Virus record (IMG/VR): IMGVR_UViG_3300027963_000017
Location: 1-34,968 of that record
DNA: 34,968 nucleotides
From: a virus
Reading direction: 5' to 3' (one strand)
Part shown: positions 5,088 through 32,839 of the stretch, piece by piece
Position numbering within the stretch: position 1 is the stretch's first letter
Layout of the letters: every line of letters begins with the position of its first letter
The notes under the pieces: model-generated
Seen by the model: only the letters and a program-made list of their open reading frames with translations
What the model was told of the DNA's origin: nothing
The model's database searches: none
Made by a program: the position numbers and the translations under genes

Positions 5088-6725
5088 ATGCGGATACCAA
5101 CCGATGACTTAGAACGGGAGTTCTTCTACCGTGACTTAATTGAAAAGTGCATGGTGTCCTTGGCAGAGCGCAAAGGGGATTACGCCTCTCTGCGCTCTTG
5201 GTTTTTGTTTGGCGGTGGACCGGATGAAAACCCCGCCCTATTCAACAAAATCTATCCCCACATTGACCAGCTAACATCGTTTCTTTACTCAGCAGAGACA
5301 ACACGCTTCTCAATCAATGTTGGTGCCGCTGTTCCTGCCCAAGAACAAATTAAGATTCCAAGACTGACCGCTGCTTTAAATGATGAGTGGTTAAACTCAA
5401 ACTGTGACCAAGTATTTTCGTCTGCCCTAACGTGGGCACTAGTGTTTAACTCAACCTTCATTAAGCTAGTAGTCAACAACGGTATTCACCCCTACATGGT
5501 GGAACCTAGCTCTATAGGCGTCTTGCGCGAAGACGTAACCTATACCGATAGGCAAGAAGCTATAGTTCAAACCTATTACATTACAAAATCCGATTTGTAT
5601 AATCGATTGTATAGCCACCCTAAACGGGAAAGCATTGTTAAGCGCATACAAACATCGATGAATACTAAGACGGAAGATATGCCTGAAGGTCTTGACCGTC
5701 TAATTATCTCTACGTCCAATCCAACTATTTACGGTAACGTCAACTTAGACTTGTACGGCAGCAACCGTTACAAAGCCCGTGTTGCTGAAGACACCGTGAA
5801 GATGTTTGAGTTGTGGGTATGGAATGATGAAATTGAAGACTATCAAGTGGTCACTATGGCTGACCCTGACATCTTTATTTACGACCGTCCGGGTGGCTCA
5901 GTATTCCTGCGTGGTGAACTACCATTCATTCAGATTTGCCCCAACCCGCAGTTTGATTATTATTGGGGACAGAGTGAAGTTGCCCGTCTAAACTTATTGC
6001 AAGCGGTACGAAATAACCGTATGTCAGAGATATTGGATTTGTTATCCAAACAAGTCTCACCTCCAAAGGTGTTCTCTGGCTTTATGGGCATCACAGACGA
6101 AAAGGCTTTTGCGTTTGACCGTCCGGGTGCGTTTGTCTCTAGCGATATGCCTAATGCTAAAGTCGATTCCATTGCACCGGAAATGCCATCATCTTTGTTT
6201 GAGGTAATCCATGAAATTGACGCCATGTTTGCAGAGGCATCTGGAATATCAAGTGTTCTGTCTGGTCGTGGTGAGCAAGGTGTACGCTCCGCTGGTCACG
6301 CTTCTCAGCTGGCCCGTCTTGGAAGTTCTCGCGCAAAGAAAAGAGCATTAATCGTAGAAGACAGCTTAGAAAAGGTAGCAACGCTGTATCTAAAGCTCAT
6401 GCAAGCCTATGACGATACGCATTTCATGGATGAAGAAGGCAACAAATTTATTGCTGAGCAATTTACCAAAGATTACGTAGTGAAAGTAGACGCTCACTCT
6501 AATAGCCCAATATTTACCGAAGATATGCGTCAGCTGGCGTTTAATTTGTTTAAATCTCAGGCTATTGACAAAGAATCTCTGCTTGACTTGCTTGAGCCGC
6601 CAATGAAACAATTGTTAATAGATAAATTGAAAAAACGCGAAAAGTTGCAAGCTGAACAGCAAGCTAAACAGCCACAACAAGGCAAGCCCGAAGGTAAACC
6701 CGATTTGAAAGCGGTAGGTGAATAA
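5088..6725 (+). CDS. Portal protein
   Basis: 545 residues, typical for podovirus portals. The N-terminus (RGDYASLRSWFLFGG-like) and the P-H-I-D-Q-L-T-S-F-L-Y segment, the central S-N-P-T-I-Y-G-N-V region and the long helical C-terminus ending in a Lys/Gln/Glu-rich tail (KKREKLQAEQQAKQPQQG) are all typical. It would form the dodecameric ring at the packaging vertex that docks TerL and later the connector. The start follows the previous stop without a gap, and its stop overlaps the next ATG (TAATG). Confidence 0.85.
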   Translation: MRIPTDDLEREFFYRDLIEKCMVSLAERKGDYASLRSWFLFGGGPDENPALFNKIYPHIDQLTSFLYSAETTRFSINVGAAVPAQEQIKIPRLTAALNDEWLNSNCDQVFSSALTWALVFNSTFIKLVVNNGIHPYMVEPSSIGVLREDVTYTDRQEAIVQTYYITKSDLYNRLYSHPKRESIVKRIQTSMNTKTEDMPEGLDRLIISTSNPTIYGNVNLDLYGSNRYKARVAEDTVKMFELWVWNDEIEDYQVVTMADPDIFIYDRPGGSVFLRGELPFIQICPNPQFDYYWGQSEVARLNLLQAVRNNRMSEILDLLSKQVSPPKVFSGFMGITDEKAFAFDRPGAFVSSDMPNAKVDSIAPEMPSSLFEVIHEIDAMFAEASGISSVLSGRGEQGVRSAGHASQLARLGSSRAKKRALIVEDSLEKVATLYLKLMQAYDDTHFMDEEGNKFIAEQFTKDYVVKVDAHSNSPIFTEDMRQLAFNLFKSQAIDKESLLDLLEPPMKQLLIDKLKKREKLQAEQQAKQPQQGKPEGKPDLKAVGE

Positions 6726-6889
6726 TGGCAACAAAACCTGACTACTCGCCAAAAGCTGACCAGCCGAGAGTAACAAGCGGCGAACTAAAAAGGACTGAAG
6801 CTGCGCCATCTATGCAGTATCGGGTGTCGGGCATAAAGTCTTTTAACCCCCGTCAAGCAAGAAGGACGGGCCGTATGGGTGAACGATAG
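6725..6889 (+). CDS. Small basic protein after portal
   Basis: 54 residues starting in the TAATG overlap with the portal stop. It begins MATKPDYSPK and ends with an Arg-rich tail (FNPRQARRTGRMGER). The coupling to portal and open codons make a real gene likely. The basic C-terminus may touch DNA or RNA. It is followed by two 13-residue basic ORFs, so the whole 6725-7049 stretch encodes small positively charged peptides. Family not recognised. Confidence 0.6.
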   Translation: MATKPDYSPKADQPRVTSGELKRTEAAPSMQYRVSGIKSFNPRQARRTGRMGER

Positions 6890-6898
6890 GAGTACATC

Positions 6899-6940
6899 AT
6901 GTACAAAAAAATGAAGCGTGGTCGTAAGACTCGTCGTTAA
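6899..6940 (+). CDS. 13-residue basic micropeptide 1
   Basis: ATG at 6899, TAA at 6938-6940. The peptide is MYKKMKRGRKTRR, with eight Lys/Arg in 13 residues. A strong AGGAG lies six bases before the ATG. It resembles the second micropeptide at 7008 (shared M-K-R, G-R-K and terminal basic residues), which suggests a tandem pair. It could be a protamine-like DNA condenser packed in the head, comparable in character to the basic J protein of microviruses. The comparison is by composition only. Confidence 0.45.
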   Translation: MYKKMKRGRKTRR

Positions 6941-7007
6941 TTCCCGCAAGGGATGAGGTATGGCTGACTTCCTCTTTTAAGTTGGCCGCTGCTAATTGGA
7001 GAACACC

Positions 7008-7049
7008 ATGGCACGCATGAAACGTAAAGGCCGTAAAGGTCGCAAGTAA
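7008..7049 (+). CDS. 13-residue basic micropeptide 2
   Basis: ATG at 7008, TAA at 7047-7049. The peptide is MARMKRKGRKGRK, with nine Lys/Arg in 13 residues. TTGGAGAACACC supplies a ribosome site. It has the same length as the ORF at 6899 and a similar core, though the nucleotide sequences have diverged. Two such ORFs, each with a good ribosome site, in an otherwise gene-free 265-base gap argue for translation. Role unknown; nucleic-acid binding is inference. Confidence 0.45.
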   Translation: MARMKRKGRKGRK

Positions 7050-7054
7050 TTAGT

Positions 7055-7095
7055 CCCTTGTGGATTATCCCAAGGGGGAGGGGAAATACTCCCCC
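7055..7095 (+). promoter_or_regulatory. Two mutually exclusive hairpins
   Basis: CCCTTG (7055-7060) can pair with CAAGGG (7071-7076). Alternatively GGGGGAG (7074-7080) pairs with CTCCCCC (7089-7095). The two share bases 7074-7076, so only one can form, as in attenuators. No T-run follows the second hairpin, so it is not a standard terminator. It lies between the micropeptides and the promoter at 7098. Confidence 0.45.
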
Positions 7096-7097
7096 AC

Positions 7098-7125
7098 TTG
7101 ACATTTGCTGATAGTCTGGTCTAAT
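7098..7125 (+). promoter_or_regulatory. Strong sigma-70 promoter before the scaffold and coat genes
   Basis: TTGACA (7098-7103, perfect), a 16-base spacer, then TCTAAT (7120-7125, 5/6). Transcription would start near 7132, about 23 bases before the ATG at 7155. An internal promoter here would raise expression of scaffold and coat protein over the packaging genes upstream, as expected for virion structural genes. Confidence 0.7.
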
Positions 7126-7154
7126 CGCGTCTAGTTTGACGATAGAGGTTATTT

Positions 7155-7655
7155 ATGAGCGTACCACCCGATAAGTTAATGGAAATGATTGGTAAGAAGC
7201 AAGGCAATCCTACCGAAACTTCTCCTGAAGCAAGCACCGCGATGTCTGACCCGACAACGGCTCCTATGTCTGCGCCAATGTCTACGCCAGAACCAAAGAT
7301 GGGGAATCGTGAAGGCGCAATGGTAAACATATCAATGGCGATGGATTTGATTGAACAAGCCTTGCCAAGTCTAGGTAGCGAATCTGTTGAAGGTCAAAAA
7401 GCGTTAGCGGCTATTCGTTCGCTGACAGGATTGATTGGCCCTCGCAAGCAAAAAACAAATGAACTCCAGCAATCTGAAATTATTCAGATGCTACAGAACT
7501 TGCCACAAGCCGGTGGAGGAACGCCTGAAGGCCGTGCAATGTCGCAAGCTCCGATGGTCCCGAACCTCCCGCCTATGCCCGGTGCAGAATCTTCTCCGAT
7601 GAGTATGCCCGGTGCCGGTGGTGGCGGTGCTTCACCTCAACCCACTCCTATGTAA
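7155..7655 (+). CDS. Probable head assembly protein (Pro/Met/Gly-rich)
   Basis: 166 residues. The N- and C-terminal thirds are low-complexity (PTTAPMSAPMSTPEPKMG; a C-terminal Pro/Gly/Met tail). The middle is helical (MAMDLIEQALPSL, QKALAAIRSLTGLIG). Position between portal and coat, and this disordered-helical-disordered build, suggest a scaffold or head-assembly role. It is the first gene after the strong promoter at 7098-7125, with GAGG before the ATG. Confidence 0.6.
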   Translation: MSVPPDKLMEMIGKKQGNPTETSPEASTAMSDPTTAPMSAPMSTPEPKMGNREGAMVNISMAMDLIEQALPSLGSESVEGQKALAAIRSLTGLIGPRKQKTNELQQSEIIQMLQNLPQAGGGTPEGRAMSQAPMVPNLPPMPGAESSPMSMPGAGGGGASPQPTPM

Positions 7656-7868: not shown

Positions 7869-8399
7869 ATGAGTCTTGAAGATATGTCTTTTGAGCAGCG
7901 CGACCAACTAGCGTTGTTAATGCGTGAACTTTCCGATAATCCAGCAACAAGAAAAGATGTTCTGCGTTTAACTAAGCAACTTAAACCAGACCTTATTATT
8001 CCTGAGTTGGAAATTGAAAACACAACTAAAACGTATGTTGATAAGCTAGAAAAACAGCTTATGGCAAGAGATGCAAAAGACAGAGAGCAAGACGCATTAC
8101 GTGACCTTGAGTCTCGTCGCAGCAGACTAATGAAAAAAGGTCTAGTTGAGCGAGAAGAAGATATTCATGAAGTAGAAAAAGTAATGCTGGAAAAAGGCAT
8201 TACTAATCACGAAGCGGCAGCTGAATACTGGAATTGGATGAAACAATCTGCAACTCCAACGCCAACAGGTTACAACCCTTCAGCCGTTAGCAAGTTCGAC
8301 TTAGGTAAATACTATAAGAACCCGCAAGCCGCAGCAAGAGATGAAGCATCAAAAGCACTCCAAGAGTTACGTCAAAACAGACGTCCTATTGGATTTTAA
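7869..8399 (+). CDS. Probable scaffolding protein
   Basis: 176 residues, highly charged and helical, with a long coiled-coil-like centre (about 55-105, KTYVDKLEKQLMARDAKDRE onward) and a basic C-terminus (LQELRQNRRPIGF). A charged helical protein directly before the coat gene, with a basic C-terminal end that could bind coat, fits a scaffolding protein. The ribosome site is TTAGGGGATAAAA. The role is assigned by position and build, not by a recognised signature. Confidence 0.65.
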   Translation: MSLEDMSFEQRDQLALLMRELSDNPATRKDVLRLTKQLKPDLIIPELEIENTTKTYVDKLEKQLMARDAKDREQDALRDLESRRSRLMKKGLVEREEDIHEVEKVMLEKGITNHEAAAEYWNWMKQSATPTPTGYNPSAVSKFDLGKYYKNPQAAARDEASKALQELRQNRRPIGF

Positions 8400-8432: not shown

Positions 8433-9434
8433 ATGCCTATTGGTGGCGGTATCGTTCCAGCGACGGGTAGTACGCAATTTACCGAGTTGACATACGTCAC
8501 GCGGCGTGCGTTTATTCCAAAGCTAGTTGTTCAATTATATAACTCAACTCCGCTAATGGCGGCTTTGATTGCTAACTCGCAACAAGCCTCCGGTGGTGTT
8601 TCTTCAATAACCGTTCCCGTTCAGGGCGCACAGTTTGTAAACGCGCAATGGTCTGATTACTCTGGTTCGTTTAACCAGCCATCAGTCCAGCAAGGTGCTT
8701 ACAATGCTGAGTTTGACCTGAAGCTGATGATTGCTCCAGTACCGTTTCTCGGTATGGAAGGTGCAGTTCAGCAAGACGCTGCAATCATTCCTCTGATTGA
8801 AGCCCGTATGAACGATGCGACGAACGTGATGATGGATGCAATGGCAACAGCCTTGTACACCAACAGCACGAACACGCAGCAGTTCACAGGTTTGCCAGCA
8901 GCCGTTTCTGCTTCTGGTACCTACGGCAACATCAGTCGTTCGGCATATAGCTGGTGGCAGTCAAAGGCTTACTCAGCCGGTAGCGTGAACCCAACTCGTC
9001 AAAACATCCTGCAATACATTTCTGGTACTGTTAAAAACGGTGCTGAAGTGCCTTCGTTTGGTGTTTGCGGTTTTGGTACATGGACTCTGTTGGCACAAGA
9101 CTTTGTTGGTCAAGAGCAATACGTCATCACTCCGGGTTCCGGCTTTGACGGCGATTCTAATGGCCCACAAGCTGCGTTCCGCGCTTTGATGGTTGCTGGT
9201 GTACCTATTTATCCTGACCCCTACTGTCCAGAAGGTACGGTTTACTTCCTGAACACAAACTACCTCTCGCTCTATATCCATGAGCAAGGCTCGTTCGTGT
9301 TTACTGGTTTTGAATCGACCCTGCCAAACTGGCAGATTGGTTATGTTGGTGCTGTCTTGATGATTGCTGAGTTGGTTTCAACTAAGCCTAAGTCAATGTC
9401 AGTTGTGTCAGGTTACAACTCTCTAAGCATCTAA
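8433..9434 (+). CDS. Major capsid protein
   Basis: 333 residues, the usual size of an HK97-fold coat protein. It begins MPIGGGIVPATGSTQFTELT, has a helical stretch around N-D-A-T-N-V-M-M-D-A-M-A-T-A-L, and ends in beta-rich segments (FVFTGFESTLPNWQIGYVGA). Two ribosome-site-like sequences precede the ATG (AGGGGATAA and AGGAGATAACC), which suggests high expression. Position after the scaffold and before small beta-rich proteins supports the call. I see no inserted domain. Confidence 0.85.
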   Translation: MPIGGGIVPATGSTQFTELTYVTRRAFIPKLVVQLYNSTPLMAALIANSQQASGGVSSITVPVQGAQFVNAQWSDYSGSFNQPSVQQGAYNAEFDLKLMIAPVPFLGMEGAVQQDAAIIPLIEARMNDATNVMMDAMATALYTNSTNTQQFTGLPAAVSASGTYGNISRSAYSWWQSKAYSAGSVNPTRQNILQYISGTVKNGAEVPSFGVCGFGTWTLLAQDFVGQEQYVITPGSGFDGDSNGPQAAFRALMVAGVPIYPDPYCPEGTVYFLNTNYLSLYIHEQGSFVFTGFESTLPNWQIGYVGAVLMIAELVSTKPKSMSVVSGYNSLSI

Positions 9435-28188: not shown

Positions 28189-28537
28189 TATCAGCGACTA
28201 AGTACCATTCGGTGATGTAGTCTTTAAACTCAATTAAGCCCTTGCCGGATTGGACGTAGCTGCCGTCCGGCATAATTCTCCAAAAGCTGCCTACGCGCAT
28301 CCCGTTCTCTGTATCGCCAGAGACCACTAAAACCGTGGTCTTAGGAAGCCTTGAGAGGGCTTTTAAGAGGATTTCTTGGCCTTTGCTTATCTTCTCCCCG
28401 TCTCGCTTCCATTCGCCGAACAGGAAGTGTTCCTTGCGTTCTAGGACCATGTCCAGATTAGACGGCAAAACCTTGCCAAGCAGTCCTGACAGCTCCCCAA
28501 AATCAACGTGGGGAGCATACTTGTCGCGCATCATCAT
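28181..28537 (-). CDS. Small possible PD-(D/E)XK nuclease-like protein
   Basis: 118 residues beginning MMMRDKYAPHVDF. N-L-D-M-V-L-E-R (about 27-34) followed by L-F-G-E-W-K-R resembles the D...ExK core of PD-(D/E)XK nucleases, with a downstream S-K-G-Q-E-I-L-L-K-A-L helix and a T-T-V-L-V-V-S-G strand in the expected places. No homologue is recalled with certainty. The ATG overlaps the previous stop (ATGATG). It is the last left-arm gene and ends tail-to-tail over the methyltransferase gene. Confidence 0.6.
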   Translation of the reverse strand: MMMRDKYAPHVDFGELSGLLGKVLPSNLDMVLERKEHFLFGEWKRDGEKISKGQEILLKALSRLPKTTVLVVSGDTENGMRVGSFWRIMPDGSYVQSGKGLIEFKDYITEWYLVADIT

Positions 28538-29271
28538 GGTGCTTGGAGCAGCTGACCTTCAAACGGGTAGGTGCCAACGTGACCGAGATTTATCCACGGA
28601 GCAGCCCATACCTTTTTGCCGTGAGTCCGTGCTTTTTTGCAAAAGTCGTAATCTTCAGACAAAAGCAATTTGCTCTCTGGCTCAATCTGAGTCGCAAAGA
28701 ACTCATGAATGGTCTGTCCATTGTCCTTGTTTTGCATATCCAAGACGTTATTTAAGTACATGGGAACGTGACCGATTAAATCCTCAAAGACTTCTCGCTT
28801 AATCAGCATGAAGCCTGTGCCGCCGTTCCAAATCTCTACTGGCTTATTAATTGGCACCGTTACTTCGTTCTTATAGTCCACCAGATTAACTACAAACGCC
28901 CCTGTATGGTGCTTTAGTTGGTCATTGGGTACACCTGCATCGATAGCGTTACGAACGGTTTGCCAGTTGATTTCTTTCTTCGGGTAGATGCCACAAATAA
29001 TGTCTTTGTCGGCTTCTATCATTGGGAAGATGTCATTGGGATTGAACTTGATGTCAGCATCAATAAACATCATGTGCGTAGCATCAGACTTTAGGAAATG
29101 ACTAACTAGCAGGTTCCTAGCTCTCTGAATTAACGACTCATTAAACAAGAAAGAAAAGCTCACATTCATGCCAGCTTCTTTACAAGTATTTTGAAGCTGT
29201 AAGCATGATTGTGCGTAGAAGCCAAAGCATTGGCCGCCGTACATCGGTGTTGCAACGAATAGGTGTTTCAT
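28534..29271 (-). CDS. GT-A type glycosyltransferase
   Basis: 245 residues. It begins MKHLFVATPMYGGQCFGFYA and shows a GT-A pattern: R-A-R-N-L-L-V near 50, then F-I-D-A-D-I-K-F (the DxD-type metal site, about 69-76), G-G-T-G-F-M-L-I-K-R near 150 and L-S-E-D-Y-D-F-C near 204. It probably transfers a sugar to DNA, a virion protein or a host surface glycan. The ribosome site AAGGGATAACA precedes the ATG. Upstream in its leader (29292-29314) a GGGGC/GCCCC hairpin with a 13-base loop may form. Confidence 0.75.
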   Translation of the reverse strand: MKHLFVATPMYGGQCFGFYAQSCLQLQNTCKEAGMNVSFSFLFNESLIQRARNLLVSHFLKSDATHMMFIDADIKFNPNDIFPMIEADKDIICGIYPKKEINWQTVRNAIDAGVPNDQLKHHTGAFVVNLVDYKNEVTVPINKPVEIWNGGTGFMLIKREVFEDLIGHVPMYLNNVLDMQNKDNGQTIHEFFATQIEPESKLLLSEDYDFCKKARTHGKKVWAAPWINLGHVGTYPFEGQLLQAP

Positions 29272-29334
29272 TGTTATCCCTTTAAATTAGTGGGGCTACT
29301 GGAAACGATGCCCCGAACCGTTCCTAACCTGTCC

Positions 29335-30234
29335 TCAGAGGGACTCGCCTTCCAGATAGCGGGGGTTCAAAATTCTCCAAGCTGTTGCTGCACACAATGG
29401 CACTTGTCCGTTGCCAATGGCTTTAATTCTGTCCACTCTAGAGGCCAACCCATCAACCACTCTGTCCACGTTGGGTTCAGTTTTCCACCAGTTTCCGCAC
29501 CCACGACCAAAGCCAAACCCGGCGACTGTCTTTTGTCCCTTTGCCTCGTCATTGACTCCTTCGTTCCTGTGTCTTTGTAATCCCTCGTCACAGGAGTAGG
29601 CCACATTTGAACTAGTCTTCCCAACCCCACACTCCCATCTATGCCGTTCTGATTCACTTTTCTTGGCATCCCCGTTGAGGTTGTGTAAAACGTATCGTTC
29701 TTTCCAATAACTGAGCCTGTTGTTCCATCGCTGGCTACCGGGGTGGGAAGCATGAATCCAAATACGGTTTCTTTGATGGGGTGCGCCGACATCTGCTGCT
29801 CCCAACACTCCCCATTTCGCATCAAACCCCATGCCGGCAAGGTCTGACAAGACTCTGTCGAGTCCTCGAATAGTGAGCATTGGTGAGTTTTCAATGAATG
29901 CGTACTTGGGTCGTACTTCGCAAATGACCCTTGCCATTTCTCGCCACATTCCGCTTCGTTCTCCGTCAAGTCCATCTCCTTTTCCTGCAATGGATATGTC
30001 CTGGCATGGAAACCCTCCCGATACAACGTCAACAATTCCTCTCCACGGCTTTCCGTCAAAGGTTTGAACGTCATCCCAAATCGGGAAAGGCGCAAGAAAT
30101 CCGTCATTTTGTCGGGCGCACAATACGCTTGCGGGATAGGGTTCCCATTCAACAGCACAGACTGTTCGCCATCCGAGAAGTTTTCCCCCAAGTATTCCTC
30201 CACCAGCGCCCGCGAAAAGAGCCAACTCATTCAC
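29335..30234 (-). CDS. dcm: C5-cytosine DNA methyltransferase
   Basis: 299 residues from a GTG at 30234. All core motifs are present: I L-F-A-G-A-G-G-G (6-13), IV G-G-F-P-C-Q-D-I-S (catalytic Cys77), VI E-N-S-P (115-118, usually E-N-V), VIII Q-R-N-R-I-W-I (154-160) and X G-N-G-Q-V-P (274-279). The target recognition region lies between about 165 and 260. It methylates cytosine C5 in a short unknown site, probably to block restriction. A second long ORF runs through it in another frame on the same strand (29367-30230). The GTG sits only three or four bases after the poly-G, a poor spacing. Confidence 0.9.
   Translation of the reverse strand: MNELALFAGAGGGILGGKLLGWRTVCAVEWEPYPASVLCARQNDGFLAPFPIWDDVQTFDGKPWRGIVDVVSGGFPCQDISIAGKGDGLDGERSGMWREMARVICEVRPKYAFIENSPMLTIRGLDRVLSDLAGMGFDAKWGVLGAADVGAPHQRNRIWIHASHPGSQRWNNRLSYWKERYVLHNLNGDAKKSESERHRWECGVGKTSSNVAYSCDEGLQRHRNEGVNDEAKGQKTVAGFGFGRGCGNWWKTEPNVDRVVDGLASRVDRIKAIGNGQVPLCAATAWRILNPRYLEGESL
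29367..30230 (-). CDS. Dual-coded ORF inside the methyltransferase gene
   Basis: 287 residues on the same strand as dcm in another frame, with 97% of the methyltransferase gene read twice. ATG at 30230 overlaps the RusA stop (ATGA) and sits eight bases after a poly-G ribosome site. An internal ATG at 30107 (MTDFLRLSRFGMTFKPL) may be a second start. Features: SFAKYDPSTHSLKTHQCSL, twice a L/W-P-T-P-V motif, and a C-terminal G-G-K-L-N-P-T-W-T-E-W-L-M-G-W-P. From memory this is a widespread phage protein, often annotated hypothetical, next to or over dcm genes. The segment W-T-E-L-K-P-L-A-T-D-K is the shifted reading of dcm motif X, so part of its conservation may be passive. Confidence 0.6.
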   Translation of the reverse strand: MSWLFSRALVEEYLGENFSDGEQSVLLNGNPIPQAYCAPDKMTDFLRLSRFGMTFKPLTESRGEELLTLYREGFHARTYPLQEKEMDLTENEAECGEKWQGSFAKYDPSTHSLKTHQCSLFEDSTESCQTLPAWGLMRNGECWEQQMSAHPIKETVFGFMLPTPVASDGTTGSVIGKNDTFYTTSTGMPRKVNQNGIDGSVGLGRLVQMWPTPVTRDYKDTGTKESMTRQRDKRQSPGLALVVGAETGGKLNPTWTEWLMGWPLEWTELKPLATDKCHCVQQQLGEF

Positions 30235-30595
30235 TTTCCCCCCCAGGAATTTCTTCGATTAGCACCCTAATAAGACCACCTTTTAATGGTTCGCCTCGAA
30301 TCATCTCAATGTGGTCAACCTGAAAATCATCATCGAAAACACCAGCATCTTGTAAGCTGTCTAGGACGGCTTTAATCCTGTTATCGATGTCAATTTTCCT
30401 TTTATCTCTGGGACGCAAAATCATTGTTATCTTCAATTTCTTGTCCTCAAACTTAGGAATGTTCTTTTCTATAATGTAGTCCTGAACGTCAGTTTTGAAT
30501 TGCCGTCCTGCTTTTGAGAGAACAGTTCTTCCTCGAAAGTTTCGCCAGTAGGTATTCATACTTGGCGGGAACGGCAACTCAAGCCATACGTGCAT
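30227..30595 (-). CDS. rusA: RusA-type Holliday junction resolvase
   Basis: 122 residues from the ATG at 30595, chosen because it overlaps the previous stop (TAATG); a TTG at 30601 adds two. It shows P-F-P-P-S-M-N-T-Y-W at the start and the RusA acidic core K-I-D-I-D-N-R-I-K-A-V-L-D-S-L (Asp69, Asp71) with D-D-D-F-Q-V-D downstream, which coordinate the catalytic metal. RusA cuts four-way junctions made by recombination. The stop overlaps the start of the dual-coded ORF and lies within the dcm start. Confidence 0.88.
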   Translation of the reverse strand: MHVWLELPFPPSMNTYWRNFRGRTVLSKAGRQFKTDVQDYIIEKNIPKFEDKKLKITMILRPRDKRKIDIDNRIKAVLDSLQDAGVFDDDFQVDHIEMIRGEPLKGGLIRVLIEEIPGGESE

Positions 30596-30876
30596 TACCA
30601 AGGAATGTCGCCAGCCATCTTGTTCTTTGGCGTTACCTCTTTGGGATACTGAGCGTCCTTCTGCTTATCCTTCCAGTCGGGGTCAGATACTTTGATGTTG
30701 AAATACTCGCCATGCGGACCATCGTTCTTCCAAATACCAAAGTTCACTATCTGACCTTTGACACAGAGGGTGCCTTTTAAATCAGGGTCAGTATCCTTTT
30801 GCTTGTATTTGTTGTGCGTGATTCTTCCCTTCAGTTCTTGGGGAATAAACTTTGTGTACTCTCTTGCTTCACTCAT
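30595..30876 (-). CDS. Small protein of the recombination module
   Basis: 93 residues from the ATG at 30876, preceded by AAAGGAACCCGCA; a longer frame to 30945 includes a terminator and is unlikely. Lys/Asp-rich with a short beta core (G-Q-I-V-N-F-G-I-W-K-N, Y-F-N-I-K-V-S-D-P-D-W). The G-x-W-K pattern is reminiscent of DUF736-like or OB-type proteins, but this is weak. It lies between RusA and the RecT-like gene, so a single-strand-DNA-binding helper is a reasonable guess. Confidence 0.6.
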   Translation of the reverse strand: MSEAREYTKFIPQELKGRITHNKYKQKDTDPDLKGTLCVKGQIVNFGIWKNDGPHGEYFNIKVSDPDWKDKQKDAQYPKEVTPKNKMAGDIPW

Positions 30877-30898
30877 TGCGGGTTCCTTTATCTTAGGT

Positions 30899-30922
30899 AA
30901 AAATGCCCCGATGCTTTGGGGC
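30899..30922 (-). terminator. Intrinsic terminator after the RecT-like gene
   Basis: On the minus strand GCCCC (922-918) pairs with GGGGC (909-905) across an 8-base loop, followed by ATTTTT. It lies 15 bases after the RecT-like stop and before the small gene at 30876. It is probably partial, because the genes downstream have no evident promoter of their own. Confidence 0.6.
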
Positions 30923-30937
30923 TGTCCATGCCTGAAA

Positions 30938-31735
30938 TTACTCAATAGCGTCCTCCAAATCTGAGAATGTATCGACTCCTTGTTTGGCTGCTATAAATTG
31001 TGTCTTGGTCACAGCGTCCATTCGCTTAATTGCATTAGCGTTCCCCGCCTCCCAAGTTTTTCGCTTTTCTGCCTTGTCTTCTGGCTTTAGCTTTGGCGAG
31101 TTCTCGATAGCGTCCAACATGGCTACGTAACGCTCAATGTAATCTTTCCAATCGGTGCAATTAGCGTAAACACTACCGTCAGGCAAAAATAATTGATATT
31201 CGCTTACCGGTTCCTCAATAACGATTTCCGCTTCGCCCATGTCCTTGACCGTCTGTGGAGGAGCTTTGAATGTTTCGACTTCTTCAGGCGTATAAACTCC
31301 CACGACGCAGCCCGGATAGACTGTTCTAACGCCTTCTGAGACGCATCTGGCTCGCAACATGGCTCTAGCGTAGTTGCGCCAGTTATCCTTGCCGGTAAGC
31401 CCGATTTTCTTTGCCATCTCGAATGTCCAACTGACAGACACACTCCCACCATTAGGGTGAGAAAAATTACCAGTAACGCGCTCATCGGTGTATTCCTCCC
31501 ACTTAACGGTGCCACCGGCTTGTTGGAAACGGGCAAGCATAGCGTCAGCCTTCAAAGCAGGGCGACCCTGTATGACATGAAAATCACGCATAGCAATAGC
31601 AGGATGCAGGTTTTCAGCTTGACATAGGAGCATGATAGCCATTGCTTCCTCAGTTGATTTAAAGCCGAACATCTTGCTTTTAGATGCAACTTCAGCCATT
31701 TCTCTTATTTCGTTAATTGGCACTAAAGCTGTCAT
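30938..31735 (-). CDS. recT: RecT-family single-strand annealing protein
   Basis: 265 residues. The segment M-A-I-M-L-L-C-Q-A-E-N-L-H-P-A (about 29-43), then F-H-V-I-Q-G-R-P-A-L-K-A-D-A-M-L and W-R-N-Y-A-R-A-M-L-R-A-R-C-V-S-E are typical of RecT-type annealing proteins of phages. It would coat single strands left by the exonuclease and anneal homologous strands. The gene follows the exonuclease accessory genes in a classic exonuclease-annealase-resolvase cluster. The start overlaps the previous stop by four bases. The C-terminal 60 residues are variable and charged. Confidence 0.8.
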   Translation of the reverse strand: MTALVPINEIREMAEVASKSKMFGFKSTEEAMAIMLLCQAENLHPAIAMRDFHVIQGRPALKADAMLARFQQAGGTVKWEEYTDERVTGNFSHPNGGSVSVSWTFEMAKKIGLTGKDNWRNYARAMLRARCVSEGVRTVYPGCVVGVYTPEEVETFKAPPQTVKDMGEAEIVIEEPVSEYQLFLPDGSVYANCTDWKDYIERYVAMLDAIENSPKLKPEDKAEKRKTWEAGNANAIKRMDAVTKTQFIAAKQGVDTFSDLEDAIE

Positions 31736-31929
31736 AAATCCCTCGCTTTCATCATTGCGTCGGCTATTTCATAGGCTATTTTTGCTTCTTCGTGAGCGTT
31801 CCAATCTAAATCTTCACGAAAATCAGCCATCAATGCCTGTAATGCTCTAACTGCAAAATAATCTCGCAAGGTCATTCCTGTTTCTTGCGTACCTGTTTTT
31901 GGGTCACGCCCACTTGGAAATGCGAACAT
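31732..31929 (-). CDS. Small acidic helical protein
   Basis: 65 residues from the ATG at 31929, preceded by a strong GGAGG; a longer ORF start at 32079 lies inside the exonuclease. It begins MFAFPSGRDPKTGTQETGMT, then L-R-D-Y-F-A-V-R-A-L-Q-A-L and an acidic helical end (AYEIADAMMKARDL). Proteins with an L-R-D-Y-F-A-A/V start are often seen next to phage recombination genes. Function unknown. Confidence 0.75.
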   Translation of the reverse strand: MFAFPSGRDPKTGTQETGMTLRDYFAVRALQALMADFREDLDWNAHEEAKIAYEIADAMMKARDL

Positions 31930-31939
31930 AAATCCTCCG

Positions 31940-32839
31940 TTATTTAAGTAAGAAGCGGCGAGAACCTGCCGTTTTCGCGACAAACTTCGCGTAAATGTCG
32001 GGGTGTTGGGCTTGGAATAACTTAGCGTCGAATCGTTCGCTGCCTTTGCTGTTTTTCCATGTCGCGAGTATTTTTCCATCGAAAGATACTAATTCAGAAC
32101 TCCATTGCATGTGGTTTTGCAAAGCTGTTAATAAGTGTTCTTCCTTTTCTTCTAGCCGCTTGATTTCTTCTTTAACGAACTTCAATGCTTCGGCTGCTTT
32201 CTCAATGGGCAGAGGGGCGATTACAGACGTTCCAGCGTCTTGGGCATAGATGAGCTTGGTCTGGTCGGTATCTTCGGCTTCTAGGGGGGTTTTAGTGGCT
32301 ACAGCACCCCAAAATTTAGCCATGTCTTTGATTAGTTCCTCTTTTTGAGCTTCCATAATTGAAAATTCAAATATTTCAAAGTTTTGGCCTCCGAACAAGA
32401 CGGCGAGTACAATTTTTTGTACATTATGACAAGCCGCCTCATGGATAAGCTGCGCCATGTCCGCAGCCGGAATAATCCCTGATTCCGCATCGAACTTATT
32501 GCGTACCGCCGCATTGTAGTTTTTAGCTTCAACCAGCGTTTGACCGTCCGCAGAGATGAAATCGAAATGGCTACGTAACCATCCTTCTTTGGAGTGTGTA
32601 AGCGCATAGTCTGCATCCTTTAATTCAATCTTCAATTTGTCTTGGGCTAAACGTCCGATTAGCGGCTGCATAACGTGACCCATTTGAACAGCTTCAACAT
32701 TAGATAAGTCTGGACGCTCTTTCAGGCCCAATTTCTCAAGTACAGCTTCGTTACCTTTGCCGTTTGCTGCTTTCCTGCTGTCACCAGACCACCACGCAGA
32801 ATTACGTATCTCTGGTGCGAAATCATCTTGGTTATTCAT
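31940..32839 (-). CDS. YqaJ-type viral exonuclease
   Basis: 299 residues. The N-terminal half is the lambda-exonuclease/YqaJ fold of the PD-(D/E)XK superfamily: M-G-H-V-M-Q-P-L-I (the usual acidic residue is Gln58 here), S-H-F-D-F-I (Asp93) and L-V-E-A-K-N-Y (Glu104, Lys106). The C-terminus is a helical, charged extension around 215-250. It digests a strand of duplex ends to give the single strand used by the RecT-like protein. The start lies within the end of the previous ORF (8-base overlap), with a TTTCCTAAC element 16 bases upstream. Confidence 0.8.
   Translation of the reverse strand: MNNQDDFAPEIRNSAWWSGDSRKAANGKGNEAVLEKLGLKERPDLSNVEAVQMGHVMQPLIGRLAQDKLKIELKDADYALTHSKEGWLRSHFDFISADGQTLVEAKNYNAAVRNKFDAESGIIPAADMAQLIHEAACHNVQKIVLAVLFGGQNFEIFEFSIMEAQKEELIKDMAKFWGAVATKTPLEAEDTDQTKLIYAQDAGTSVIAPLPIEKAAEALKFVKEEIKRLEEKEEHLLTALQNHMQWSSELVSFDGKILATWKNSKGSERFDAKLFQAQHPDIYAKFVAKTAGSRRFLLK

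Follow-up and report, generated by a model that had tools for sequence, protein, structure and literature searches.

The window analyzed here, an IMG/VR virus record of 34,968 bases taken as a whole, contains two consecutive genes of only 13 codons, each encoding a strongly basic micropeptide, in the head-gene region downstream of the portal gene. Micropeptide ORFs of this kind exist in, and are conserved and syntenic among, the relatives compared, where they show coding constraint, and they are almost certainly translated genes. We regard it as an even prospect that their products are directly encoded, protamine-like head peptides that bind nucleic acid and would be packaged. The genes concerned and their ribosome sites are the following.

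5088..6725, + strand: portal protein gene, used as an anchor (PHROG 1216/156 portal, E 2e-8 and 4.5e-7; Pfam SU10_portal, E 4e-10)
6725..6889, + strand: conserved 54-aa gene overlapping the portal stop codon (similar ORF in most relatives; alignment)
6888..6892, + strand: AGGAG ribosome site of micropeptide gene 1 (sequence; Shine-Dalgarno types and spacing in relatives)
6899..6940, + strand: micropeptide gene 1, MYKKMKRGRKTRR, ATG at 6899 and TAA at 6938-6940 (sequence, conservation, pN/pS)
6998..7001, + strand: GGAG ribosome site of micropeptide gene 2 (read from sequence)
7008..7049, + strand: micropeptide gene 2, MARMKRKGRKGRK, ATG at 7008 and TAA at 7047-7049 (sequence, conservation, pN/pS)
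7155..7655, + strand: 166-aa low-complexity gene, previously labeled scaffold (poor model, pLDDT 61)
7869..8399, + strand: 176-aa gene directly 5' of the major capsid gene, scaffold candidate (predicted structure)
8433..9434, + strand: major capsid protein gene, used as an anchor (PHROG 9953, E 4.6e-34)

Terminase, DUF5672, portal and, further on, major capsid genes were recognized in the window with PHROG and Pfam. A preliminary description of this DNA had reported two 13-codon ORFs with good ribosome sites, and both are present at 6899-6940 and 7008-7049. The gap in which they lie had been described as free of other genes, which proved incorrect, as the conserved 54-aa gene occupies 6725-6889. 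Its product retains a KADQPRVT core in the alignment and has a basic tail, the gene adjoins the micropeptide genes in most relatives, and its stop codon overlaps the ribosome site of micropeptide gene 1. The possibility that read-through or frameshifting joins the 54-aa gene to gene 1 was considered and rejected: the two are in frame in the window, and the frame shifts among relatives (the gene 1 start offset is 174 in L001 and 176 in L035). Placement between portal and scaffold was borne out on the portal side by PHROG and Pfam, whereas the scaffold label given to the poorly modeled 166-aa product is unproven. The 176-aa product, predicted to be all-helical with a long central helix, is a better candidate for the scaffold; a Foldseek search with its model matched no solved structure, the best viral match being an uncharacterised phage protein. 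PHROGs and Pfam searches gave no matches for the 54-aa and 166-aa products. Elsewhere in the window, a gene block on the - strand (28534-32839) shows weak RecT-like, YqaJ-like and Anp1-like matches.

Relatives were retrieved without reference to the peptides, through their portal or capsid genes, and scanned for ATG-initiated ORFs of 9-20 codons with at least 42% K+R. This unselected set comprised 168 loci and, once 25 without the interval were dropped and 10 duplicates removed, 133 unique intervals. Short basic ORFs at the same place in related genomes, which the preliminary description had named as the feature to look for, were found in 128 of these 133 distinct portal-to-next-head-gene intervals, each carrying one to three. 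Positive intervals numbered 52 of 52 at portal identities of at least 80%, 33 of 38 at 60-80%, 18 of 18 at 40-60% and 11 of 11 below 40%, together with 14 of 14 L133-type intervals. A second clade (the L291 clade, for which the query portal was 29% identical to that of the window) yielded 70 positive intervals out of 73 unique ones from 79 loci, many on contigs longer than 60 kb and under criteria looser than those of the strict control described below; two of the three intervals lacking an ATG micropeptide have a GTG-start version. With the same looser criteria, controls for this clade returned two sense ORFs in 566 kb outside the interval and one antisense ORF inside it, and the few extra far-downstream matches, such as MTFRDASRTCRRRRRRPP, are probably due to chance. 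Six contigs are common to the unselected and L291-clade sets (L212/L299, L217/L304, L210/L319, L218/L367, L219/L368 and L243/L374).

Other routes of retrieval gave concordant pictures. Portal-based retrieval returned 80 relatives with 77-100% identity, and nearly all of those long enough have both ORFs in place. A scan of IMG/VR contigs that was blind to neighboring genes, using the gene 2 pattern plus a ribosome site, returned at least 120 stretches, and every locus examined among the matches listed (79 + 37) carries the head genes of this phage group. Relatives found with a capsid profile, with portals 31-55% identical to that of the window, mostly have one or two peptides, for instance MARKGRKHRRK or MARRHRRGRRGRR, and most capsid relatives in binned bacterial genomes carry micropeptides too. 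The bins in which head-gene relatives L283-L293 were found are assigned to betaproteobacteria, Saccharibacteria, Balneolaceae, Acidobacteriaceae, Verrucomicrobia and others, a spread that may reflect diverse hosts or mis-binned contigs.

Because 13-codon ORFs commonly arise at random, the ORFs could in principle be products of chance, or a DNA or RNA element merely resembling ORFs. A strict class of ORFs (ATG start, 9-16 aa, at least 45% K+R, ribosome site) was therefore counted in 168 unique portal-MCP intervals totaling 315 kb, a set that mixes loci fetched by peptide pattern (L084-L199) with unselected loci. It comprised 284 ORFs on the sense strand inside the intervals, against none on the antisense strand, none in reversed sequence and none in 1.14 Mb outside the intervals on both strands; three micropeptide ORFs occur in 8 of the 168 intervals. 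Start codon, ribosome site and stop codon are kept across portals 31-100% identical. In disjoint sister pairs with a portal divergence of 2-15%, pN/pS is well under 1 for both genes, at 0.13 for gene 1 (CI 0.06-0.21, 29 pairs) and 0.21 for gene 2 (CI 0.10-0.30, 30 pairs), with values of 0.27-0.30 at wider divergence ranges. Against these observations, chance is scarcely credible as an explanation. Codon variation falls mainly at third positions, and in the clade of the window arginine is mostly encoded by CGT or CGC in the micropeptide genes, as it is in the capsid gene. Conservation, silent codon change, ribosome sites and position thus lend strong support to the earlier proposal that these are real genes lying under gene-calling cut-offs.

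The composition of the products was examined in 213 peptides of 9-19 residues from the unselected loci. Arginine makes up 34% of residues, lysine 31%, glycine 10% and alanine 8%; 149 of the 213 peptides have a net charge of +8 and a further 47 one of +7, acidic residues are absent in 207, and I, L, V, F and W are all absent in 198. TAA is the stop codon of 196 of the 213 genes, and 186 have AGGAG, GGAG or AAGGAG as the ribosome site. The K/R residues repeat with a period of three along the peptides, and the clade of the window keeps the motifs KRGRKTRR and RKGRKxRK, a conservation beyond what bulk charge alone needs that speaks against the protamine-like reading. The earlier term protamine-like holds as far as composition (65% K+R, mostly acid-free, mostly +8) and head-gene position are concerned, and its co-packaging component stays conditional.

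Loss of the genes beside conserved neighbors, set out in the preliminary description as the opposing outcome, is limited to a handful of relatives. Micropeptide genes are absent in L246 and L292, with the portal gene, 54-aa gene and downstream gene all present, so the micropeptides are dispensable in some phages and not universal. In L247, L267 and L285 the peptide is altered to a 20-residue, less basic version (35-40% K+R), gene 1 is absent in L055 and L072, and gene 2 is absent in L272, L276 and L255. Among more distant capsid-matched phages, no ATG micropeptide was found in the head interval of Mx8, Mx9, BUCT555, ppBjS10J-1 and Mwe-JY13, nor in that of a TM7 phage and two uncultured records, the sole basic matches in these phages being TTG or GTG ORFs. 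Several loci show local rearrangements: a charged 51-aa ORF is inserted between the micropeptide genes of L024, approximately 234-460 nt 3' of the portal stop codon; L030 has extra DNA 5' of gene 1; and a Lys/Gly version replaces the Arg-rich peptide in L316 (MAKKVKKGSKKGKGSK, GTG start) and L320 (MAKKTKGKGKKKGKGSK).

The region between and behind the two genes contains the following further elements.

6942..6953, + strand: short hairpin UCCC-GCAA-GGGA, directly 3' of gene 1 (read from sequence)
6955..6987, + strand: H-type RNA pseudoknot, with stem S1 at 6955-6958/6971-6974 and stem S2 at 6962-6970/6979-6987 (covariation)
7074..7095, + strand: perfect 7-bp GC-rich inverted repeat, without a T run (read from sequence)
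7098..7103, + strand: TTGACA, a promoter-like -35 element with only a weak -10 (read from sequence)

At the hairpin site behind gene 1, 27 of the 28 relatives in the alignment can form a stem of at least 4 bp, compared with 42% of shuffles. The pseudoknot ends, in the window, 10 nt 5' of the GGAG of gene 2. It was assessed in an alignment of 28 diverse spacers, drawn from 112 loci with at least two peptide genes and thinned at 86% similarity, in which 90.9% of cells are paired; versions slid along the alignment reach 62.5% at most. Both-side changes number 36 cells, against 8.2 in shuffles, and covariation is 0.300 against 0.113, with none of 500 shuffles reaching the values for pairing, both-side changes and covariation; further pair types, at 13, show no excess over shuffles (12.4). 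L120 was excluded from the alignment because it does not contain TGGCT, yet the pairing is possible there too as judged by eye. A third nano-ORF between the two genes (MADFLF or MAAFPLK) was also considered. Its start and codons are not kept while the pairing covaries, and the feature of the spacer is therefore the pseudoknot. An Rfam search over 6700-7200 gave no match up to E 1.

A covariance model of stem S2 only, termed R1 and built from 28 of the loci subsequently searched, matches the window at 6935-7010 with 54.2 bits; because its span includes the ATG, the coincidence of match ends with start codons is partly built into the model. R1 matches 73 of 82 first-set loci, the nine misses being eight loci that end too early and L053. 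Of the pattern-selected loci, 91 of 93 are matched; among 86 other loci, matches at E up to 0.5 number 23 and include L105 and L233. Where it is found, the pseudoknot directly precedes a basic micropeptide gene, which in L105 and L233 is the first one. With R1, it was not found in L053 or in most of the distant clades that retain the peptide, L208-L225 among them, and retention of the peptide there indicates that the RNA element is an added control and not the cause of ORF conservation. In the subclade of the window, the pseudoknot probably controls translation of gene 2, in the manner of T4 gene 32.

Short Arg-rich peptides can bind RNA hairpins, and the position of the pseudoknot directly 5' of a basic micropeptide gene would suit an RNA-binding regulator, that is, an arginine-rich-motif peptide recognizing its own pseudoknot or late transcripts, as lambdoid N peptides do. 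The persistence of the peptide in L053 and L208-L225, together with the location of the genes among structural genes, argues against this as the main function, and we consider it unlikely. Small ORFs separated by an RNA structure and followed by a GC-rich stem are also what leader peptides or attenuators would look like, their translation regulating the downstream scaffold and capsid genes and their product being irrelevant. Such elements share a transcript with, and adjoin, the gene that they regulate. Here, 84 of 85 relatives have TTGAC[A/T] no more than 130 nt from the last micropeptide gene, separating the peptide genes from the downstream genes, and the distance between the last peptide gene and the scaffold-like gene is 470-4216 nt in 9 of 114 loci. 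Retention of the peptide without the pseudoknot and the amino-acid constraint seen in pN/pS weigh further against leader peptides, which we regard as very improbable. The scaffold and capsid genes seem to have their own promoter, with a weak -10 in the window, and the inverted repeat at 7074-7095 is a possible end of the portal transcript; a consensus promoter scan of the window did not list the 7098-7103 element, and a terminator scan did not call the repeat. In L091, two extra genes at 1439-2447 separate the micropeptide genes from a 141-aa scaffold-like gene, and the micropeptide genes thus need not adjoin the latter.

The genes always lie within the portal-to-capsid interval, and the portal and capsid proteins carry net charges of -16 and -7, which would fit a head-assembly cofactor, a polycation that would bridge scaffold, portal and capsid by neutralizing acidic surfaces of the prohead core, would not condense DNA, and might leave before packaging. 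The composition suits nucleic acid equally well, however, and either gene can be kept without the other (gene 2 in L055 and L072, gene 1 in L272 and L276), leaving this a minority possibility. A packaged peptide might instead enter with the DNA and act on the host, as do T4 Alt and IPI. The head-gene location accords with such an injected effector, as does the T4 precedent in the part of the source available (PMC9026906), but very low complexity and charge-dominated conservation fit a specific host target poorly and make it improbable.

As nucleic-acid-binding head peptides, the micropeptides might act as follows. Late in infection, the portal transcript would be translated into the portal, the 54-aa protein and the polycations, each 13-mer being an unfolded, acid-free chain of charge +8 with almost no hydrophobic residues, made from its own ribosome site. 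Judging from its composition, the peptide would most likely bind nucleic acid, acting in head assembly, in DNA packaging and head filling, or in particle stability. Position and composition suggest that it may remain with the DNA after packaging, much as a T4 internal protein or a protamine on a miniature scale would. Free peptide would perhaps bind the observed pseudoknot and repress gene 2 in the style of gp32, a control that we propose for the structure. The presence of one to three copies of the gene suggests that dose matters. The 34,968-bp genome carries 69,936 phosphates, which approximately 8,700 copies would neutralize completely and 300 copies, the number for a T4 internal protein, to about 3%; full condensation of the protamine type would therefore be a heavy demand, and bulk condensation is no likelier as a role than nucleation, local bending or ejection. 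The fullest form of this proposal is a widespread uncultured tailed-phage lineage with stand-alone protamine genes of ~10-15 codons, whose products are packaged with the genome and, in a subclade, feed back through a pseudoknot with a 13-residue ligand; taken as a whole it is speculative, and we hold it to be doubtful.

Missed small genes are familiar from bacteria, and the present case indicates that as few as ~10 codons can make up a conserved phage gene that escapes annotation. Both ORFs are present in the nearest GenBank records, MW202753 and MW202825, with no gene listed for either. In these records, antisense hypothetical genes lie over or beside the micropeptide genes (L082 4740-5038 and L083 5779-6039, respectively) and are probably spurious. 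We found no paper on such micropeptides in a literature search that covered subscription journals thinly, so that their absence from print is not established. If the reading as ~10-15-codon protamines is true, few of the conserved protein-coding genes of phages would be shorter than these. If packaged, the products would be natural DNA-binding peptides of remarkable simplicity for tailed phages, making the role of basic internal head proteins testable with synthesized 13-mers. The pseudoknot offers a compact test of whether a 13-residue peptide can regulate its own mRNA.

Several known systems provide points of comparison. The AT-hook, whose core is R-G-R-P, resembles the micropeptides as a short basic peptide around a G-R core, and G-R-[KR] occurs in 175 of the 213 peptides; identity with the AT-hook was rejected, since the core is absent and GRP occurs in none of the 213. 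The microvirus J protein is very small, basic, packaged and DNA-binding, with 24-40 residues, and belongs to ssDNA phages, whereas the micropeptides have 9-19 residues and come from tailed phages. For the pseudoknot, the closest parallel is T4 gene 32, whose product gp32 acts through a pseudoknot 5' of the ribosome site to repress the mRNA from which it is translated, as stated in the available part of the source (PMC535899). This layout recurs in the window, where the covarying pseudoknot lies a short way 5' of the GGAG of gene 2. The likeness is one of layout, the T4 product being a single-strand-binding protein and the micropeptide a 13-mer. Protamine-like viral core proteins are typically under 15 kDa and condense genomes, according to the part of the source available (PMC6163548). 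Baculovirus P6.9 and the adenovirus core peptides are small and Arg/Lys-rich, as are the micropeptides (9-19 residues and 65% K+R across 213 peptides); they belong to eukaryotic dsDNA viruses, and no homology is claimed. These proteins are larger than the micropeptides or are cut from precursors. The T4 internal proteins are basic, present at ~300 copies per head and DNA-binding in low salt, the role of IPII and IPIII being given as unresolved in the accessible part of the source (PMC9026906). IPI, IPII and IPIII share with the micropeptides their basic character and, putatively, the context of a tailed-phage head. The T4 proteins are ~8-20 kDa and carry a targeting peptide that a prohead protease removes, whereas the micropeptides, at ~1.5 kDa, are encoded at their final size. 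Taken together, the micropeptides would putatively work most like the T4 internal proteins and the protamine-like viral core proteins.
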